A stretch of DNA of 64,000 nt from Apostichopus japonicus (lineage: Eukaryota; Echinodermata; Holothuroidea; Aspidochirotida; Stichopodidae): NCBI RefSeq assembly GCF_037975245.1, contig NC_092579.1, forward strand, positions 19,118,678 through 19,182,677, read 5' to 3'. Shown piece by piece: positions 23,156 to 60,295 of the stretch. The notes beneath the pieces were generated by a model. That model made no database searches, was not told the DNA's origin, and worked only from the letters and a program-made list of their open reading frames with translations. The translations under genes were made by a program, and so were the position numbers. The first letter of the stretch is position 1; each line of letters opens with the position of its first letter.

Positions 23156-26100
23156 TCAAGATGCAATTTCGATTTCTTCTGCTTCGTCAGCTGGCAGTTT
23201 CTCGAATGAGCATGAAGAGGAAGAAGTAGTCGAAGAGTTGTCCTCTTCTTCCGGTACCTCACTCTTCTCTATCTTTATTGGTTCTGTCGATCTATCGGCT
23301 TCACAGATCTGAAGGAAATCTTGGATGAAGTTCAATACTGCTAGGTGATTCCTGTATGTGACACAAATACACACTTGACAGGTTTAATTTTTTTTATAAA
23401 CAACAACAAGTTTCATCAGAAAATTTCAACTTGCATGTAATAAGCAGGTAAAAAATGGTAAAAAGTTACAGGAAATGTAATAACAATCCTAGCAGGAATT
23501 CTCTGGAAAGCAAACTAAAATGAACACATAAGAAACCGGTTAAATAGACAGTTGATGCTGTATGGTGTAACTGCACAATGGAAATGTTAAGGGACAATTG
23601 TGTCATCAGCACTGTTATTAGTACTGCTTTCAGGTTATCATGAATAACTTGAGAAATTTCTCATGAATTCTTTTCCAAATTGCATACAATAAATCTCCTT
23701 GGACAAAAAAAAATGCATTTGACTATGAAAGCCCAAAACAGATGGCAGGACTGAAGGTGGGGAGGGGAGAGGTGAGGATCATGAGGGGGAGACAGAGGTA
23801 GCAACTAACACTTCAGATCCTTGCTTATGACCATTCTGTAACATGTTGTACTTACTCTCCAGAACCCCTAGTAGCTTTGATTGTAAGGGGTAAGGAATAT
23901 CCATCTTTGAATACAAGCAGCAAATACTTGGCTTTACCAAAAAACTTGACTTCGTCTTCTGCCATCTGTGCATCAATTACATGAGAAAGGGGAGCTGTCA
24001 CTATTAAAGAAAAGGAGAGAACAAAAGTTAAAACCAAAGGGGAGGAGGTGGATGGAATACCAACAAAAATAAAACAGTTACATGGGTTGTCATAGACAGG
24101 CTCATAGCAGCCATTTTCCAAAATTTCCAGGGTTTGGTAGATGGAATTCCATTGCAAATTGCTTACTAAATCCCTTACTGGATTGCAGCTGTTCCTTTAA
24201 CAGGGGAAATTTTCGAAGGTCGTCTGGTTGTCTGAGACGGCCAAATTTCTGTTGGGATAACCAAACTCAGCTGTGGAGGTCACCTGGTGGGACGACTAGT
24301 TGCTAAATTCAAATTCAGATTGCATAATGTAACTTAATACCCCCAAATAGGTAAAATGATAAACTGGTATGACCACCAACATTGGTGTCCTATTCATGAA
24401 CCTATTACACATATCTCCTACAGTGTACATATCAGTGTTGAGTGTTCTATTAACCAAACCTACACATCTTTTCTTAAGTGTACATACTGGTGTTCTATTC
24501 ACCAAACCTACAAGTATCTCCTACAGTGTACATATTGGTGTTCTATTCACCAAACCTACACATCTCTCCTACAGTGAACATATTGGTGTTCTATTCACCA
24601 AACCTACACATCTCTCCTACAGTTTACATACTGGTGTCCTATTCACCAAACCTACACATCTCTCCTACAGTGTACATACTGGTGTTCTATTCATCAAACC
24701 TACACATCTCTCCTACAGTGTACATATTGGTGTTCTATTCACCAAACCTACACATCTCTCCTACAGTGTACATATTGGTGTTTTATTCACCAAACCTACA
24801 CATCTCTCCTACAGTGTACATACTGGTGTTCTATTCACCAGTCCTACACATCTCTCCTACAGTGAACATATTGGTGTTCTATTCACCAAACCTACACATC
24901 TCTCCTACTGCACATATTGGTCATTGTTCATATCTTGATACCTTTTTTTGGGCAACCAAATTTACTGTTCCGACAACCAATATGTAAGGCATGGTTCGAG
25001 AGACAACCATAAAAGAATCCATAACAATTTTGCCCTGTTTTGTATAAGATAAATATTAGAAAGCCCCTGCAGAAGGCTGGAACTCATTGCAGGAATTTCT
25101 TTCCAAAGTCATCCTCTTTTGTCCGAAATAATTTTATAACAGGCCTCACCATTTGCTACATTTCCATGATAAAAACTACTAACCTTGTTTTTAATTTTTA
25201 TGTTACACCTAAAGATGTATGAATCCTCATACTTAAGCAGGTGTCTTACCTACATTGCATGACTCCTTACGGGCAAAGACGACTCTCTCTACTAAGCTGA
25301 GACGTTTCAATTGCACAAGGTCCTTCTTCCTGTCTAGAATACACTCCTAGTGACAGAAAACGGAGGGGTGTATGAAAACATTGGTTTATCACAGAAAACA
25401 TTTTCAGAACGGAGGCAAAAACATAAGAATGGGGTTAAACAGACAATTTCGGAGATGGTTAAGTGAAGCAAAGAGAACAATTGCTTGATAATACCATAAT
25501 TCACACTCGGGGTGAAAAGACCCCTACGGGCGGGCAATGGCCCGTCTAGGCTATTGGGCATGAGTTTTAACTCAATTAATTTGGCAAATTTTTGTTCTTT
25601 TTTAACCAAGTTTGATATTTAATTGACAAATGTCAGTGTAAAACAAACTTCCTCCTTCCCATCCCCCCCCCCCTTCCACCAAACCAAAACAAATTTACTC
25701 TTTGTTTTTTACACTTAAATACTGGTTAGACTTTTTTGTGACATGGATCTTATATCAATGGCAAAAGGTACAAAACTTTGTGATGTCACAGCCATTACCT
25801 GTGATGTCACAGCCAGTATTTGTTATATCACCACAATCCCATGACAATTGGCAACCTTACTCACCTCCCAATCATCTAAAGATAGGAATGCACCCAACAC
25901 ACCACAGGAAAAACAAAACAGCTTCCACAACATAGAGTCATCTTCATGAGAGAATACAACCACTCCAAGGCCGATGGACAATATTCCTGAAATGAAAGCA
26001 AATTAAACAAACAAACTTAAACCAGGCACATGACTATACCACTTACTGTATGCAAATAAAAACACCTGCTGAGAGTGCAAAATATTTGCAACACATAATT

Positions 26101-52282: not shown

Positions 52283-55200
52283 ATGGCATGGCAAGGACAG
52301 CAACCGCCAGCCTTCAATCCTGCTTACAACACACAATATGCAAGTTTTTTCTTTGTTATTTTCACTAAATTACTACGTTAGATCTATAGGTCTAGTTCCG
52401 TCTATGTGATCAGTTCACCTTACTAGCATTAAAACGTCAGTACCGGTTACACGAAATTACATTGCTACTGACAATGTTCACACTTGGCTAAGTTCCAGTG
52501 TTTTACCATGCAAACGGTTGAACAGACTTTTTACGGAGCTTTGAACAGATCGTGGGTTTCCTATCAATCATCAGTAAAATGTTGCTAATATAGACCAAAG
52601 ACTAGCGCTATTACCCCGATAGTGGCTTTGTAACTCTAACATTACTACTACTGTAGTGTTATGCCCCTAATTTGTCTTACTCCTACTTCCTATTCCTAGC
52701 ACTATGGCCTAACTGTCATGTCTAACTGAATGAAGGCTGAAGTAAGTTAGCGTAGACTACATTGGATTGGTGTTAAAAACACTAACAGGTGCATAGTTGA
52801 TATACTGTTAGCAGTTTGTAGCTGTACTATAAAGCATGATGCTACTGCACTTAAGTGGTTAATTTGGGATGGTAGTAACATGTACTTATTAGTACTACCA
52901 ATGTAATGTGTATATTTCATCCAACAACACTGTCAATGGAAGGAAGAATGCACTAATAATCTTTGCGATATTTTTGCAATAATTGTGAATATTTACAGCT
53001 TTATTGATTATCACCTGACCAAAAGAATAATACAAAACTCCTTGCTGTGTAATGATCTGTTTACTTATGTTTAGTGAAATGCTTGTATTCATTGTTATTC
53101 ACCCTATATTATGAACAATTGTGTTTGGCATGGTCATTGTTTTGTTGAGGATTTTCCTATGTGACAACATTGCCATCCAGACTACTTTAATTTTAAAATG
53201 TAGGATAATCTAACTAATTGAAATTGGTGTCATTTCCATCATGAATTACTTAGCAGATGCTTATTTCACTTTCACAGAATCAACCACAAGGTAGCAACCC
53301 TTCCGCACCACCAACACAGACTGCACCGCCGTATAACCCTTATCAGCAAACCCCTCCTCGTGGTTATCAACAAACCCCTCCAGGTGGATACCAACAAACC
53401 CCTCCTGGTGGGTATCAACAAACCCCTCCCGGTGGATATCAACAAACTCCTCCTGGTGGGTATAGTGGTGCACCCACTGGATATGGAGGTGCACCCACTG
53501 GGTATGGAGGAGCACAGGCAGGAGGTTATCCAGGCCACCCACCTACAGGCTATGGGGCACCTGGCTATGGTACTGGAGCCCCTCCAGGAGCAGATCCAAA
53601 CCTATGGGCTTGGTTTCAGGTAATTAATCTTTGAAGTATGTACAAATTCCATAGTTATGGTAGATTAAATTACAAATTTGGATGATGATAACTTCAAGCT
53701 AATTAATTTGAAATCATCTAGCAAATTTTTAGCGCACCAAACTTGACAGCTGTAGCGATGACTGTTAAAGTGCAATTGCATGATTGGAGGCATTTGAAAA
53801 CAGAGTTGTAAGTTTTGTAACGAGCTGCTTCAATTTAACATTGATTTGAGACACTTTCAGTAATTTACATCAAGTAATGGTATTACTGTGAAGCGTATTC
53901 TAGTTATTGTTATTGTGAAGCGTATTCTGCAGCACCCCCCTCAGCCCCCCTCACCCCCCCCCAAAAAAAACTTGTTCAAGTCAAATTACTGTTTTTATAC
54001 TCAAGTTATTACCAGTTACAACACTGCTGAAATAGCACAAGGTTCCAACTTCTTTGTACTTTTCTGAGTTTGGAAGGGGGATGAGGGAGGGGGGGGGGTG
54101 TAAGAGTAAGGGCAAGGAGAGGAGGGAAATGTTGCTCATCATTCATTCACTATGAAGGAGACTTCACCCATTGAGTTTTACACAAAATTACAGGCAGTGA
54201 ATGTATCAAGAAATGGTTCAATCAAGGCAGAAGAGTTACAGCAAGCCCTCTTGAATTCAAATTGGTCGACTTTCAAACGAGAGACCTGCGAAACCATGAT
54301 CAGAACGTTCGACCAAAAGAGGTTGGGAAGCAAAGAGTAATTTATTGTGGTTTGCTGTGCTGTGCAGTGCTCGCATGCAAAAACATGATTGTTCCTTTCG
54401 ACTTTGCTGAAACAGCAGTTTGACGTACAAGAAGATGACATCACCGTTGACTTGACTGAATGTGTGTGCAAGTTTTGTGTTTCAACAGAAATGTGAGGAA
54501 ACTGACACACCTAAATAAATATTGTGGTTTCTTCACAATCATCTGTTACTCTATAGATAGTGGTTGACAACATAAACTTTCTGAGGTTCAGCTATATGTG
54601 GCTTTGACTAACATACATGGACTTCCCTATAAATTTCCCTTTTTCCTTCAAACAAAAGTTTTCAATTGGGCCTTTTGAAAAAACGAAAAAAAAAGGACTG
54701 GTTTCGTGTATCACAAATTTATCATGAACTGTGTTTATCCTTGAAGAAATGTAAGCCAGACTAAATACTGTAAATTCAAAAAAAGAGAAAAAAGATACCA
54801 TGGATATAACATGGGTATTAGTTCTAGTAAGTATAGTACAATGATATAGTGTTTGATTCAGAGGAATGTTTGGCTTGATATAGATCCACTACTGCCCAAA
54901 TTTGACTGGGTAAATACCTTTTGTGTACAGTTACAGTAGTACAAATTTGGAAATTTAGGGCTATTTATTGGCTAAAGGCCAGTGAATTTTGCTGCCTGTC
55001 AGTAAAAAAGCCTCGTACAGTAACTGATGTGTGAGAATTGGATTTTATCCAGTTGGTGTTTCAAACACTGGCAATTTTCTAGCAAGTGGCTATGATCTTG
55101 AAATTCATTTTCTAGGACTCCAGTGCATGCATTCCACTCATTGAAATCCTTTCCTCAACAAGGCAGTATCTTTTGTACCCCACTCATTGCATGTAAATGT

Positions 55201-58200
55201 AAATTTTCCACAAATGTTCACATAATCTACAGAGTAACTTTAGTATGTTGCAAAGAGGCTCATGCAATCCAACCAATGTGACCAACACTTTTCCTGCCCA
55301 TCCTCCTTGAATTTAAGTTAAATAATCACCTTGAAGCATACTTCGAATAATCAAATAAAAGATTAATAAAAATATCTTAGATAATTATTACCAAATATGT
55401 AGACATAATATAAAGGTTAATGTAAACCAATATTGAGTACCATTCAGCCAGATGATTTTGAGCATAATGAATCTTCTTGTTTTACCAGGCAGTCGATGTA
55501 GATCACAGTAACTCTATAACGGCCCTAGAGTTGAGGCAAGCTCTGGTCAACGGTAATTGGACAACATTTAATGAAGAATCTTGCCGACTAATGATCGGAA
55601 TGTTTGATAAAGATAGGTGGGGATTATTTGATTTATTTCATTTCACAATCTGTCAAAATTTTACAATTAGATGTTAAGAATATTCAAAGAAAAAAATCGT
55701 TCAGTCCCCAGATGAGAATAGTCAGTGGTATATTCCCTGTGCTGTTATATAGTGTTAGCCTGTGATTTCAAGTAATACATTCAAGGGATATACACAATTC
55801 CATAGCAAACCTTGAGGAGGACACAGTGTAAAATGGCTAGGGAGGTAGCCGAATATGTTGATGGTAAAGTCTCTTAAGGCATTTTGTTTTCAAATTATCC
55901 TAAACGACTTTTTTTTGAAAGAGAATGGCTGCAAACCTGTAGGGCTATTGGGAAAGTTTCGAATATAGCACTTGATACAGAATAAGGGATAACTGATGGA
56001 TGAGAATTAATTACTAATTCATAACTAATTTTGCTTTCCATATGTCCAAAATTTTGAATGCAAATTGTATAATTTCTAATTGTATACTGTGCATGACATG
56101 CAACTAGAGATTCAGTCTTTGACTTAATACCCAAACGGACGACAAGGCTTGGTGTTGTGTTCATTGGTAACATGTTGTTCTTCAGGAGGAGTCCTAAGTT
56201 GTCATACTTCTATTTAAGTACTCTGATACTTAGTAAAATTGTATCAGTTAAACCCACACTTTTACCGCATCCTTGTGATGATCGGACTTTTGTAAATTAT
56301 TTTGTGGTTTCACGGTACGGGATGACCCTCTCTGTGTAAAACTAGAGTTCAAAGGAATAGAGACTGACTTGTGACTTGATATTGAATGCAACCAAATGAT
56401 TCGCTACTAAAACATGACTTGTTACCTAGTCACCCGAAATATGACCAGGTGACTTGACTTGAGACCAAGTGATTTGATTTGTAACCAAACTGATATGACT
56501 ACTTGACTTGACGACTTTGAAGACTTTACCGGAAGACATTCTACTCGTTGACGACTGAATCCTTACTCTCTCTCTCAGTCATTTTAATTTCCTTTTAGTA
56601 TGAAACTTGTCTTTCTTTAGATTCTTCATTTCACTTGCAAACCATTCTTGTGAATTTGTTTCTGTGTAGAGAGTATGCATGTAATATACTTGTCTATCAT
56701 TTCCTGCTGTTTTTTTCTTGCTGTGCCTTTTCTTTGTATATAGTGTGCTGTTTGTATGCTTACTGTCTATTATACAGTACTACTCAATATTGCATGTACA
56801 GTATGTAAGTGATCTTCTTTCTTATGATATACTTAAATCATGGTTTAGTACAGTGGAAAGATAACTGTACGTGCACCAGACTATCTGTACGTATTGATTC
56901 TAAATAATTTATGATCAATAAAATTGTGAATAATGGATATTAAACTGACGTAGAAATTATAGACAATGGGAGAAGAGCGAAGAAGTTTATGGCTACGATT
57001 CTAGCCATACACTTGGCTACAATTCTAGCCATAAACTTCTTTGTTCTTTGCCAAATGAAAGTATAAATTTGTTGTATAATAAACTATAATCTAGTTAGCT
57101 ATTGTTTAATGCATCCTTACATATTCATAGTACATGTTGGGTCAAAACCTGTAGCCCAGGGGTTCCCTAACTGGGGTGCATGAACCCCAAGGGGGTGCAT
57201 GAGTTCATCCCAGGGGGTTCGTGAGACGTTTCGGAAAGTACAAACTAGAGTATTCTTTGTTGAACTAAAAAGTCTGATATATCATATAATTTATTAATGT
57301 ACAAAAGTCGTACCTACCAACAAACTCTACAATATTCCACTATGAACTTGATCTTTTACAAAGCACTGTTATACGTATTATAGTATAATAATGACTAAGA
57401 TCGTGTCTCGAAAAGTTGGGGGTTCGTGGACAACTCTGACATCCACAGGGGGTTCGTGGGGGGATAAAGTTAGGGAAACCCTGCTGTAGCCTGTACACAC
57501 AACTGGTGGGTGGTAGAAGGTACTCACATTAAAACTGGTATTTAGTAAAAGTATAATGAACACCTCAAACATGAGAATTGGTAGAATATTACACTGAATT
57601 TGAATGAAGACCATTATTCTATCGAAGACCTTATGGCAGAGTTCAAAAGATCCTGCATTCCTTATTGTTTCTGCTTTTCTATGAACGAACATAATGAAGT
57701 TGCTAAAAACAAGAAATACTGTTAATAAAAACAAAAATTCAAAATGTGTTTATAGATTCTTGTTTCTGATCTGTTGTTGCTTTTACTGTGAATACTATGT
57801 TTTTTTGGAGACTTACCTATAAAAGCTAAAACAAATAAAATTTTGTGGATATTAGAATGTGATTTTTTTGTTATTTGCCTTTCAGAGATGGAACTATCAA
57901 TTTCCACGAATTTGCAGCTTTATGGAAATACATACAAGACTGGAACCGCTGTTTCCAACAGTAAGTTTTCTCTTGTTTTTAACCACTGGACTACTTCATC
58001 TGTTATAATGGTGGTTAATAGAGTTCTTACACTCCTGATATCTTAGATTAGCACACAGACCATGATTAGAAAAGAGTAGTTTCAAGTAACAGAAGTGTAT
58101 ATTTTTACTTTGTTGTGAAAAGTATGTGTAAATAGGAAAATATAAACAACCGGGCTTTGCTTGCTTAATTTCTGTCTGGTTTCCTTGTATTTGTTGAAAG

Positions 58201-60295
58201 TTCTTTTCCACTTATTTTATATGAGGTTGCATGTGTGGGAATTGATAGACATGGAAGCTGGCAAAGAGCGCATACTACATCAATCCAGTTGTTTTATAAT
58301 TAAGGGTTCGGACCGACGAAGAAGAAAGAATTCTTGATAAAGTAACGGACTGGCAAGTTAGCACAGCCGAAGTTAGCCTAGGCCTAAGGTAGGCGCAAAT
58401 AGGCTAGATAGATTAAGAAAAGAAAGATATGTTTGTAGCAGACAACGTTTGTTTCCTTCCCCAAAAGACCATTTTAGCATATTAGGTATGTTACATTCTG
58501 GTCAGGGATGAAGTACCCCAGTGAAGTGAGGACCAGACAGCAGAAGTTATCATAAATACTGTCATAAAAACGTAAGCAAGTTTAAAAGAAATCAGTTTCC
58601 TGTCGCTTGACCTTGAATGATTTTCTTTTTTCGTCAGGTTCGATGCGGACAGATCCGGTAACATCGATGCCAACGAGCTCGGTAATGCTTTCAGAACGTT
58701 TGGTTATGTCTTGTAAGTATATCAGTCACATTTGCTATTATTTTCATCAAAGGACACTGACGAGGACATTAAAAGTATATTCCATTAAATCAACAAATGC
58801 CACAGTTCGACATTCCTACATTCTTCACTTTAGATGTTCTTTTTATTGTCAAAACCATCAAAGGCAAACTTGATTCAACTGTGAAATATTCGATTTTAAA
58901 GAAACTTTTCAAAAACTAGACAAGGATTCTACTCTCCACGTTCACAGCAGCCCTGCAGAGTTTGATTTCCATAGGCTAGCAGTTTTCTTCCCTTTTCCTA
59001 TAAAATTGTAACATAAAAATCAAATAAAATTGGTATTGTTCACTTCATCTCAAAGGTGGTCTTATTGAACAAATTATGGAGTAAGTCAAAGTGGATTTAT
59101 ATTGTTTTCCCTGAAGAATGCTTTGTTAAGCAATGACCATGTGAACCGTGTAAACCTGTGCATAAGTATTACGTTGCCATGGAAAATGTCGGTTTCATAA
59201 GGATAACAAATCAATTTAATTTTTTGTATATCACTTCAATGTTTTTTTTGTCTCAAATATTGATTTTTTTTTTGTACATCACTTCAATGTTTTTTTTCCT
59301 CAAATTTTGATTTTTTTTTTGTACATCAATTCAATGTTTTTTTTTCAAATGTTGATTTTTTTTGTACATCAGTTCAATGTTTTTTTTTCAAATGTTGATT
59401 TTTTTTGTACATCACTTCAATGTTTTTTTTTTTTCAAATGTTGATTTTATCGTAAATCACTTCAATGTTTTTTCTTTTAGATCACCACAGTTCTGTGTCA
59501 TGATCGTGAGGAAGTTTGACCGAGACAATCGCAACACAATCAACTTTGACGACTTCATCCAGGTGTGCGTCATGTTGAAGGGTCTCAGTGAAGCCTTCAA
59601 AAACAAAGACACAAACAGGACTGGTACAATCAATATCCACTATGAACAGGTACGTGTAGGAAATGACTTTCTTCTTCTATTTTTAAAAGGTCAAACCACT
59701 TCCTCCTATCCGTATTTGTATTGGCAAAGATATGAAAAATTCAAAAATTTGGAGATTCATTGTAATATTGAACTCAGTTTTTCTCAGTGGAAATTCTCTC
59801 AGCAAAAAAATTGCATATTGATGAATCTTCTAAATACAGAGAACATTGAAATACAAAGATCAATTCCAAGTGTATCACATTTCAAGGACAAATCAACAAG
59901 GTGATGATAACAGGAACATAAAGTTTTGAAGAACCTTTGCTAAGGTGACTTCACAGTGGAAGAACTGAAGGTTTAGCTAGTCAAAATAGGTTACAAACCA
60001 TAAATCACATCTCGAGTTAGGGAAAAAACATTTTTTATTTTCAGTATTTTACTGTAAGTTGTTCATTGTGACCATTCACTGATACTACAGAGTCTCTCTG
60101 AAGTCCAGAACCTTCTGATTTTTATAATTATTGTATCCATCTTCACTTAAAAGAAGTGCTCTTTACTAGTATCTGGTAATGTTTGGGATTTTGACAAATT
60201 TTCAGTTAACCTTACATGTAAAGGTGTGTTTGTTAGAATACTATTTTTTCTTATTTCAGTTTCTGGAGATGGTTTTGGAGAATGCAATACACTAG
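52283..60295 (+). CDS. PEF1: Peflin (penta-EF-hand protein), complete, 7 exons per transcript
   Basis: The exons are 52283-52339, 53278-53619, 55489-55616, 57886-57960, 58638-58712, 59481-59649 and 60260-60295. They total 882 nt (293 aa; human 284). The first 133 residues are Pro/Gly/Gln/Tyr-rich with QQTPPGGY repeats. WFQ then leads into five EF-hands. EF1 loop D136-E147 (DVDHSNSITALE), EF2 D173-E184 and EF3 D203-E214 (DADRSGNIDANE) keep Ca2+ ligands. EF4 ends with Asp. EF5 (from D269) is non-canonical, as in the family, where it mediates dimerisation. Peflin pairs with ALG-2 and acts at ER exit sites and as a CUL3-KLHL12 co-adaptor. The start has a good context (ACCATGG). Intron 1 appears to use a GC donor (TAT|GCAAGT), since no in-frame GT joins exon 1 to exon 2. 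A second version of exon 3 exists at 54194-54321. Confidence 0.93.
53338..53530 (+). repeat. Coding minisatellite in peflin exon 2
   Basis: Four to five in-frame 24-bp units encode QQTPPGGY (CAACAAACCCCTCC core). Two 24-bp GGTGCACCCACTGG units follow (GYGGAPT). The units differ mostly by synonymous changes, so the protein repeat is probably constrained while copy number could vary between individuals. Confidence 0.85.
54194..54321 (+). CDS. PEF1: Alternative EF-hand-1 exon of peflin (duplicated exon 3)
   Basis: This 128-nt open segment is flanked by AAAATTACAG and AG|GTTGGG, so it has both splice sites. It has exactly the length and phases (0 in, 2 out) of the standard exon 3 at 55489-55616. 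The translations share about 23 of 43 residues, including NxNW, TF, C, MI and FD at matching positions. The EF1 loop reads NVSRNGSIKAEE in place of DVDHSNSITALE: ligand positions 1 and 3 change from Asp to Asn and Ser, while 12 stays Glu. The first residues of the EF2 loop become DQKR instead of DKDR, losing ligand 3. No stop and no frameshift despite this divergence. It is probably a mutually exclusive exon giving a Ca2+-insensitive EF1/EF2 isoform; a pseudo-exon is the alternative. Confidence 0.75.
56979..57045. repeat. Compound inverted repeat in a peflin intron
   Basis: Outer arms CGAAGAAGTTTATGGCTA and TAGCCATAAACTTCTTTG enclose two direct copies of GGCTAC(G/A)ATTCTAGCC, each of which is itself a small hairpin. 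The structure could extrude as a cruciform. It lies about 110 bp upstream of the hAT MITE. Confidence 0.7.
57157..57483. mobile_element. 327-bp hAT-type MITE in a peflin intron
   Basis: Inverted termini CAGGGGTTCCCTAAC and GTTAGGGAAACCCTG are flanked by a perfect 8-bp duplication CTGTAGCC (57149-57156 and 57484-57491). Subterminal repeats GGGGGTTCGTG recur on the right side. The CAGGG ends plus 8-bp duplication identify a non-autonomous hAT element. No transposase fragment seen. Confidence 0.9.
59225..59480 (+). repeat. Tandem T-rich repeat ending at a peflin splice acceptor
   Basis: Six imperfect units of about 42-50 bp follow the pattern TTTTTTTTGTACATCACTTC-AATGTTTTTTTT-CAAATGTTGA. The last unit, ATCACTTCAATG then TTTTTTCTTTTAG, ends exactly at the AG of the exon that begins at 59481. 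The array therefore multiplies the polypyrimidine and branch-site region of that exon. Confidence 0.85.

Follow-up and report, generated by a model that had tools for sequence, protein, structure and literature searches.

A tandem pair of EF-hand exons, one with its Ca2+ ligands replaced, as a probable splicing choice in a peflin-like gene of the sea cucumber Apostichopus japonicus

Can the choice of a single exon switch a penta-EF-hand (PEF) protein between a Ca2+-responsive and a Ca2+-blind form? The question is raised by a gene of Apostichopus japonicus that lies in the 64,000 nucleotides of genomic DNA analysed here (the window), where the exon encoding EF1 and the first part of EF2 occurs in two versions: an upstream copy, exon A (54194 to 54321), with replaced Ca2+ ligands, and a downstream copy, exon B (55489 to 55616), with canonical EF1 and EF2 ligands. 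Our analysis makes it probable that A and B are a real alternative exon pair, born of an old tandem duplication, of which one member is used per mRNA.

All exons of the gene lie on the plus strand. The first (MAWQGQQPPAFNPAYNTQY; 52283 to 52339) was placed by reconstruction of the reading frame and junctions and has an apparent GC-AG intron donor, TAT/GCAAGT. Exon 2 (53278 to 53619) encodes an N-terminus rich in Gly, Pro, Tyr and Gln, with (GGYQQTPP)n, and ends at WAWFQ/gt in phase 0. Past A and B, an exon at 57886 to 57960 takes phase 2 from either copy and encodes the remainder of the EF2 loop (RDGTINFHE) and the start of the EF3 helix; it is followed by the EF3-loop exon (DADRSGNIDANE; 58638 to 58712) and by an exon carrying the EF4 loop and most of the EF5 loop (59481 to 59649), both reconstructed in the same manner from reading frame and junctions, and finally by the last coding exon (60260 to 60294), where the protein ends in FLEMVLENAIH and the terminal TAG is the stop codon. 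Joining either A or B to the remaining six exons gives a protein of 293 residues.

For intron 1 (52337 to 53278), the apparent GC-AG junction TAT/GCAAGT ... TTTCACAG/AAT is the sole frame-keeping one found by eye. A coding tandem repeat at 53341 to 53463 (24-nt unit, 5.1 copies) encodes the GGYQQTPP repeats, and a T-rich intronic tandem array at 59220 to 59473 (43-nt unit, 5.7 copies) ends just 5' of the acceptor at 59481, whose AG-free zone of 108 nt is unusually long.

The original prediction took this gene to be peflin, an orthology that our comparison within the PEF family does not bear out. The genome holds three group-I PEF genes, on contig C3, on contig C17 and in the window. The C3 gene is ALG-2 (70% identity to human ALG-2). 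In a small tree the C17 gene is placed with human peflin (bootstrap 87) and the window gene stands apart, and this peflin grouping is to be read as a lead; the human sorcin sequence used is identical to its PDB entry. A Gly/Pro/Tyr-rich N-terminal exon is present in the C17 gene as well. With each of the C17 and C3 genes the window gene shares ~56% identity, and it branches apart from both. It matches ALG-2 and sorcin chains over their full length (E = 4e-51 and 1e-39), so that a penta-EF-hand domain is present, and its N-terminus of ~130 residues, rich in G, P, Y and Q with GGYQQTPP repeats, is a peflin trait. It thus resembles peflin (PEF1) in combining this domain with a long Gly/Pro/Tyr-rich N-terminus, but lies apart from the pair formed by the C17 gene and human peflin. 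It is a third group-I PEF paralogue, of peflin architecture, for which "peflin-like PEF gene" is the safe name. The probable true peflin orthologue, at C17:33163152-33166602, has a different EF1/EF2 intron layout, with an intron between MIG and IFD.

Exons A and B are each 128 nt long, begin in phase 0 and end in phase 2, have AG and GT borders and contain no stops, and in all of these respects, coordinates included, the original prediction was accurate. So it was for the estimate of about 23 of 43 shared residues, since 22 of 42 complete codons encode the same residue, and 23 of 43 when the Arg codon that runs on into the next exon is counted. The nucleotide sequences differ at 51 of 128 sites, with 16 differences at first, 12 at second and 23 at third codon positions, and the similarity between the two copies (E = 6e-13, tblastn, 64-kb window) is far beyond chance. 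The reading frame also behaves as had been proposed, with a full protein arising from one of the two copies only: inclusion of both A and B breaks the frame and leads to a stop after four codons (RQSM-stop), and skipping of both causes a frameshift with a stop ~32 codons on. Synonymous sites are saturated between A and B (NG86 Ks 3.6, Ka 0.41) and the introns flanking them share no similarity, from which it follows that the duplication is old. The evidence supports an origin of A and B, as a pair of coding exons, by this tandem duplication.

No additional copies of the EF1/EF2 exon above noise were found in the 64-kb window, nor was a second copy seen in the 10-kb stretches searched at the C17 (peflin) and C3 (ALG-2) loci. 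Exon A is single copy in the 671.6-Mb genome, which rules out a recent copy borne by a transposable element or otherwise repeated as its origin. Its identity to the C17 exon (23/42) is in effect the same as that to B (22/42), and an exon phylogeny meant to date the duplication did not separate the position of A from those of B and the paralogues.

The two copies differ in their loops. The EF1 loop reads NVSRNGSIKAEE in A and DVDHSNSITALE in B, and the EF2 loop DQKRDGTINFHE in A and DKDRDGTINFHE in B. Exon B has D-x-D-x-S-x-S-x-T-x-x-E at EF1 and D-x-D-x-D-x-T-x-N-x-x-E at EF2, whereas the EF1 ligand positions of A are N, S, N, S, K and E, and position 3 of its EF2 is Lys. This comparison confirms the replacements first proposed (EF1 D1N and D3S, EF2 D3K) and adds S5N and T9K in EF1. 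Given these changes, and given that in ALG-2 both EF1 and EF3 coordinate Ca2+ in the typical way (PMC5037681), exon A should lose or weaken EF1 Ca2+ binding, as judged from its residues. Among the columns invariant in B and in the C17 and C3 genes, A keeps 14 of 17 non-ligand columns and 2 of 5 ligand columns, a preferential loss of ligands that lies in the expected direction with a Fisher p of 0.10. Three residues common to the C17 and C3 genes and lost in B, namely a G at EF1 position 6, a Q and a T, are kept in A, which speaks against A being simply a degenerating version of B.

The same residues bear on a regulatory explanation, by which A would act mainly as a poison exon whose inclusion together with B shifts the frame, triggers decay and lowers the amount of protein. 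The stop four codons past the A-B junction would serve such a purpose, and occasional inclusion would fit weak splice sites, but a pure poison exon does not need a conserved EF-hand coding sequence, and yet A keeps its hydrophobic core and family residues; we consider this explanation improbable.

Had exon A been a dead duplicate, evolving neutrally ever since the duplication, one would expect it to lie further than B from other PEF genes, and this is indeed so (BLOSUM62 sums of 115, 101 and 80 vs 146, 128 and 101). A codon model that assigns A and B the same time since duplication, fitted to just four sequences (the two copies and their C17 and C3 counterparts) that are saturated, nevertheless gave omega_A = 0.20 and omega_B = 0.10, and rejected omega_A = 1 (2dlnL 8.7, chi-square p 0.003, none of 160 parametric bootstraps). 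Equal time is a reasonable assumption for exons ~1.2 kb apart; when the constraint is lifted, 2dlnL falls to 0.24 and omega_A is unidentifiable. In simulations of neutral decay from B, with an assumed indel rate, the joint probability of an intact frame and splice sites together with at least 22/42 identity was 5e-5 at the fitted 0.43 substitutions/site. Neutral evolution since the duplication is thus rejected, under the equal-time model and by the simulation, as the original prediction had argued from the lack of stops and indels, and the dead duplicate is the most improbable of all the explanations weighed here. Given the equal-time model, these results support purifying selection on A through most of its history.

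Past selection is no proof of present use, and the splice sites of exon A leave room for a more recent loss. Its acceptor, TTTTACACAAAATTACAG, has a poor pyrimidine tract and scores -3.3 bits, the weakest of 14 acceptors scored in the three PEF genes (the other 13 range from 0.5 to 9.6), on approximate vertebrate-type weight matrices; a score at least this high is reached by 23.5% of random intronic AGs. The donor, GAG/GTTGGG, is nonconsensus, and at 1.35 bits falls inside the range of the other donors. The splice sites of B are ordinary. Weak splice sites are common in regulated exons and likewise in dead ones. We also note an upstream AG (TTGAG; 54174 to 54193), 18 nt before the acceptor of A, the use of which would add six in-frame codons (FYTKLQ).

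It is possible, although less likely than continued use, that A was long functional as an alternative exon but lately ceased to be used in this lineage, so that it now persists as an unspliced relic with a decayed acceptor. The data leave room for neutral decay up to ~0.1-0.2 substitutions/site, but little neutral time is compatible with the intact frame of A, its two splice dinucleotides and its unchanged length: in the same simulations, with the indel rate assumed, the joint chance of keeping the AG and GT borders and at least 22 identical residues, with neither a stop nor a frameshifting indel, was 0.15 at 0.1 and 0.023 at 0.2 neutral substitutions/site.

Another fate for exon A would be that of a composite terminal exon, in which read-through past the donor gives RLGSKE and a stop, and an AATAAA at 54514 ends a transcript for a truncated protein. 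The early stop and this one signal are what such an exon would have, but AATAAA and ATTAAA are frequent in the AT-rich introns here (10 in 4.4 kb), and it would be left without explanation why A is exactly 128 nt long and why its donor, in phase 2, fits the exon at 57886. This is marginally less probable than the poison exon.

Returning to the alternative exon pair, we find none of the devices that enforce exclusivity in some genes. Neither a short intron (a steric device) nor a distant branch point, as in OGDH or tropomyosin, is visible, the A-B intron being 1167 nt long and the AG-free zones, 18 nt before A and 26 nt before B, being ordinary. Competing RNA pairing gave no signal among the three introns, where the best duplexes reach -39.8, -33.6 and -36.0 kcal/mol and the most extreme values in 8 shuffles each were -38.4, -38.0 and -38.2. 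Such devices are common in mutually exclusive exons and not obligatory. Since they are not seen, the means remaining for an exclusive choice, if it is exclusive, are frame-dependent decay and trans-acting factors.

We propose that the EF1/EF2 exon of a PEF gene of peflin architecture was duplicated in tandem long ago, leaving two alternative exons, and that each mRNA would take one copy, A or B. Transcripts with both or with neither would yield no full protein and would probably be cleared by nonsense-mediated decay. In the B isoform both Ca2+ loops of the N-terminal lobe would be canonical; in the A isoform the fold would be unchanged, while its EF1 and EF2 loops are expected to have little or no affinity for Ca2+. 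Which copy is chosen would thus decide whether the N-terminal lobe responds to Ca2+ and, if ALG-2 is a guide, might affect the EF1-EF3 target pocket, since the ALG-2 pocket for Sec31A is built from EF1 to EF3 (PMC5037681). The switch had also been expected to tune pairing with ALG-2, an effect that would not be direct: PEF dimers pair through EF5 (PMC5037681), and since the exons for EF5 are shared by the two isoforms, any pairing with ALG-2 would be altered only indirectly. By the same analogy, a more direct effect of the swap would be on the N-terminal Ca2+ response, possibly with a change in target choice through the EF1-EF3 pocket.

Comparable choices are known from other protein families. 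The closest likeness is to ACTN1 and ACTN4, which, in the part of PMC9741552 that cites Waites 1992, are described as having tandem duplicated EF-hand exons with Ca2+-binding residues in one copy only, thus a mutually exclusive pair with one Ca2+-dead copy, as proposed for A and B. The alpha-actinins belong to another protein family, and their exon use is proven, while that of A and B is predicted; moreover, a short-intron or distant-branch-point device is reported for such genes, in contrast to the 1167-nt intron and ordinary AG-free zone here. Alpha-actinin EF-hand splicing is reported to be limited to chordates (PMC9177970). In OGDH, Ca2+-insensitive and Ca2+-sensitive isoforms arise from the duplicated exons 4a and 4b (PMC7969005). 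This is a Ca2+ on/off choice made by a duplicated exon pair, comparable to the one proposed for A and B. The P/Q-type channel CaV2.1 has exons named 37a and 37b, which differ from our pair in lying in a channel tail, not a PEF protein, and in being both proven. Splicing between these EF-hand-like exons switches Ca2+-dependent facilitation, according to the work cited in PMC9177970. Within the PEF family itself, an ALG-2 (PDCD6) isoform lacking Gly121-Phe122 has lowered Ca2+ affinity and changed target binding (PMC5037681); this too is alternative splicing, but by a two-residue alternative donor and not by a duplicated exon. No report of mutually exclusive exons in peflin or other PEF genes was found in the literature searched.

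If A is used, the PEF family (ALG-2, peflin, sorcin, calpain) would join the few families that splice an EF hand between Ca2+-binding and Ca2+-blind forms, such switching would extend outside chordates to a new family and phylum, and a natural Ca2+-blind PEF variant would be at hand for probing the role of EF1/EF2 binding in ER export and membrane repair. The kind of mechanism is already known from alpha-actinin and OGDH, and no new one is revealed. The wider claim, that sea cucumbers, and perhaps other echinoderms, switch a PEF Ca2+ sensor between a Ca2+-responsive and a Ca2+-blind N-terminal lobe, as the first such choice in the penta-EF-hand family and independently of chordate alpha-actinin, stands in our judgement evenly balanced between true and false.

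Apart from this gene, the window contains overlapping open frames at 24369 to 24987 that are made of repeat only (HLSYSVHTGVLFTKPT units) and are probably a minisatellite. Elsewhere in the assembly, contig C35 (16,099 bases) is mitochondrial, and its cox1 is read correctly only with AAA as Asn and ATA as Ile (table 9). Its genes follow the order cox1, nad4L, cox2, atp6, cox3, nad3, nad4, nad5, nad6 (minus strand), cob, and nad1 and nad2 (plus strand), which is the echinoid and holothuroid order and fits a sea cucumber, not a vertebrate. Five cox1-like pieces with TGA codons lie at C29:14745-31219 on a non-mitochondrial contig, and represent either nuclear mitochondrial DNA or a partly mitochondrial scaffold.
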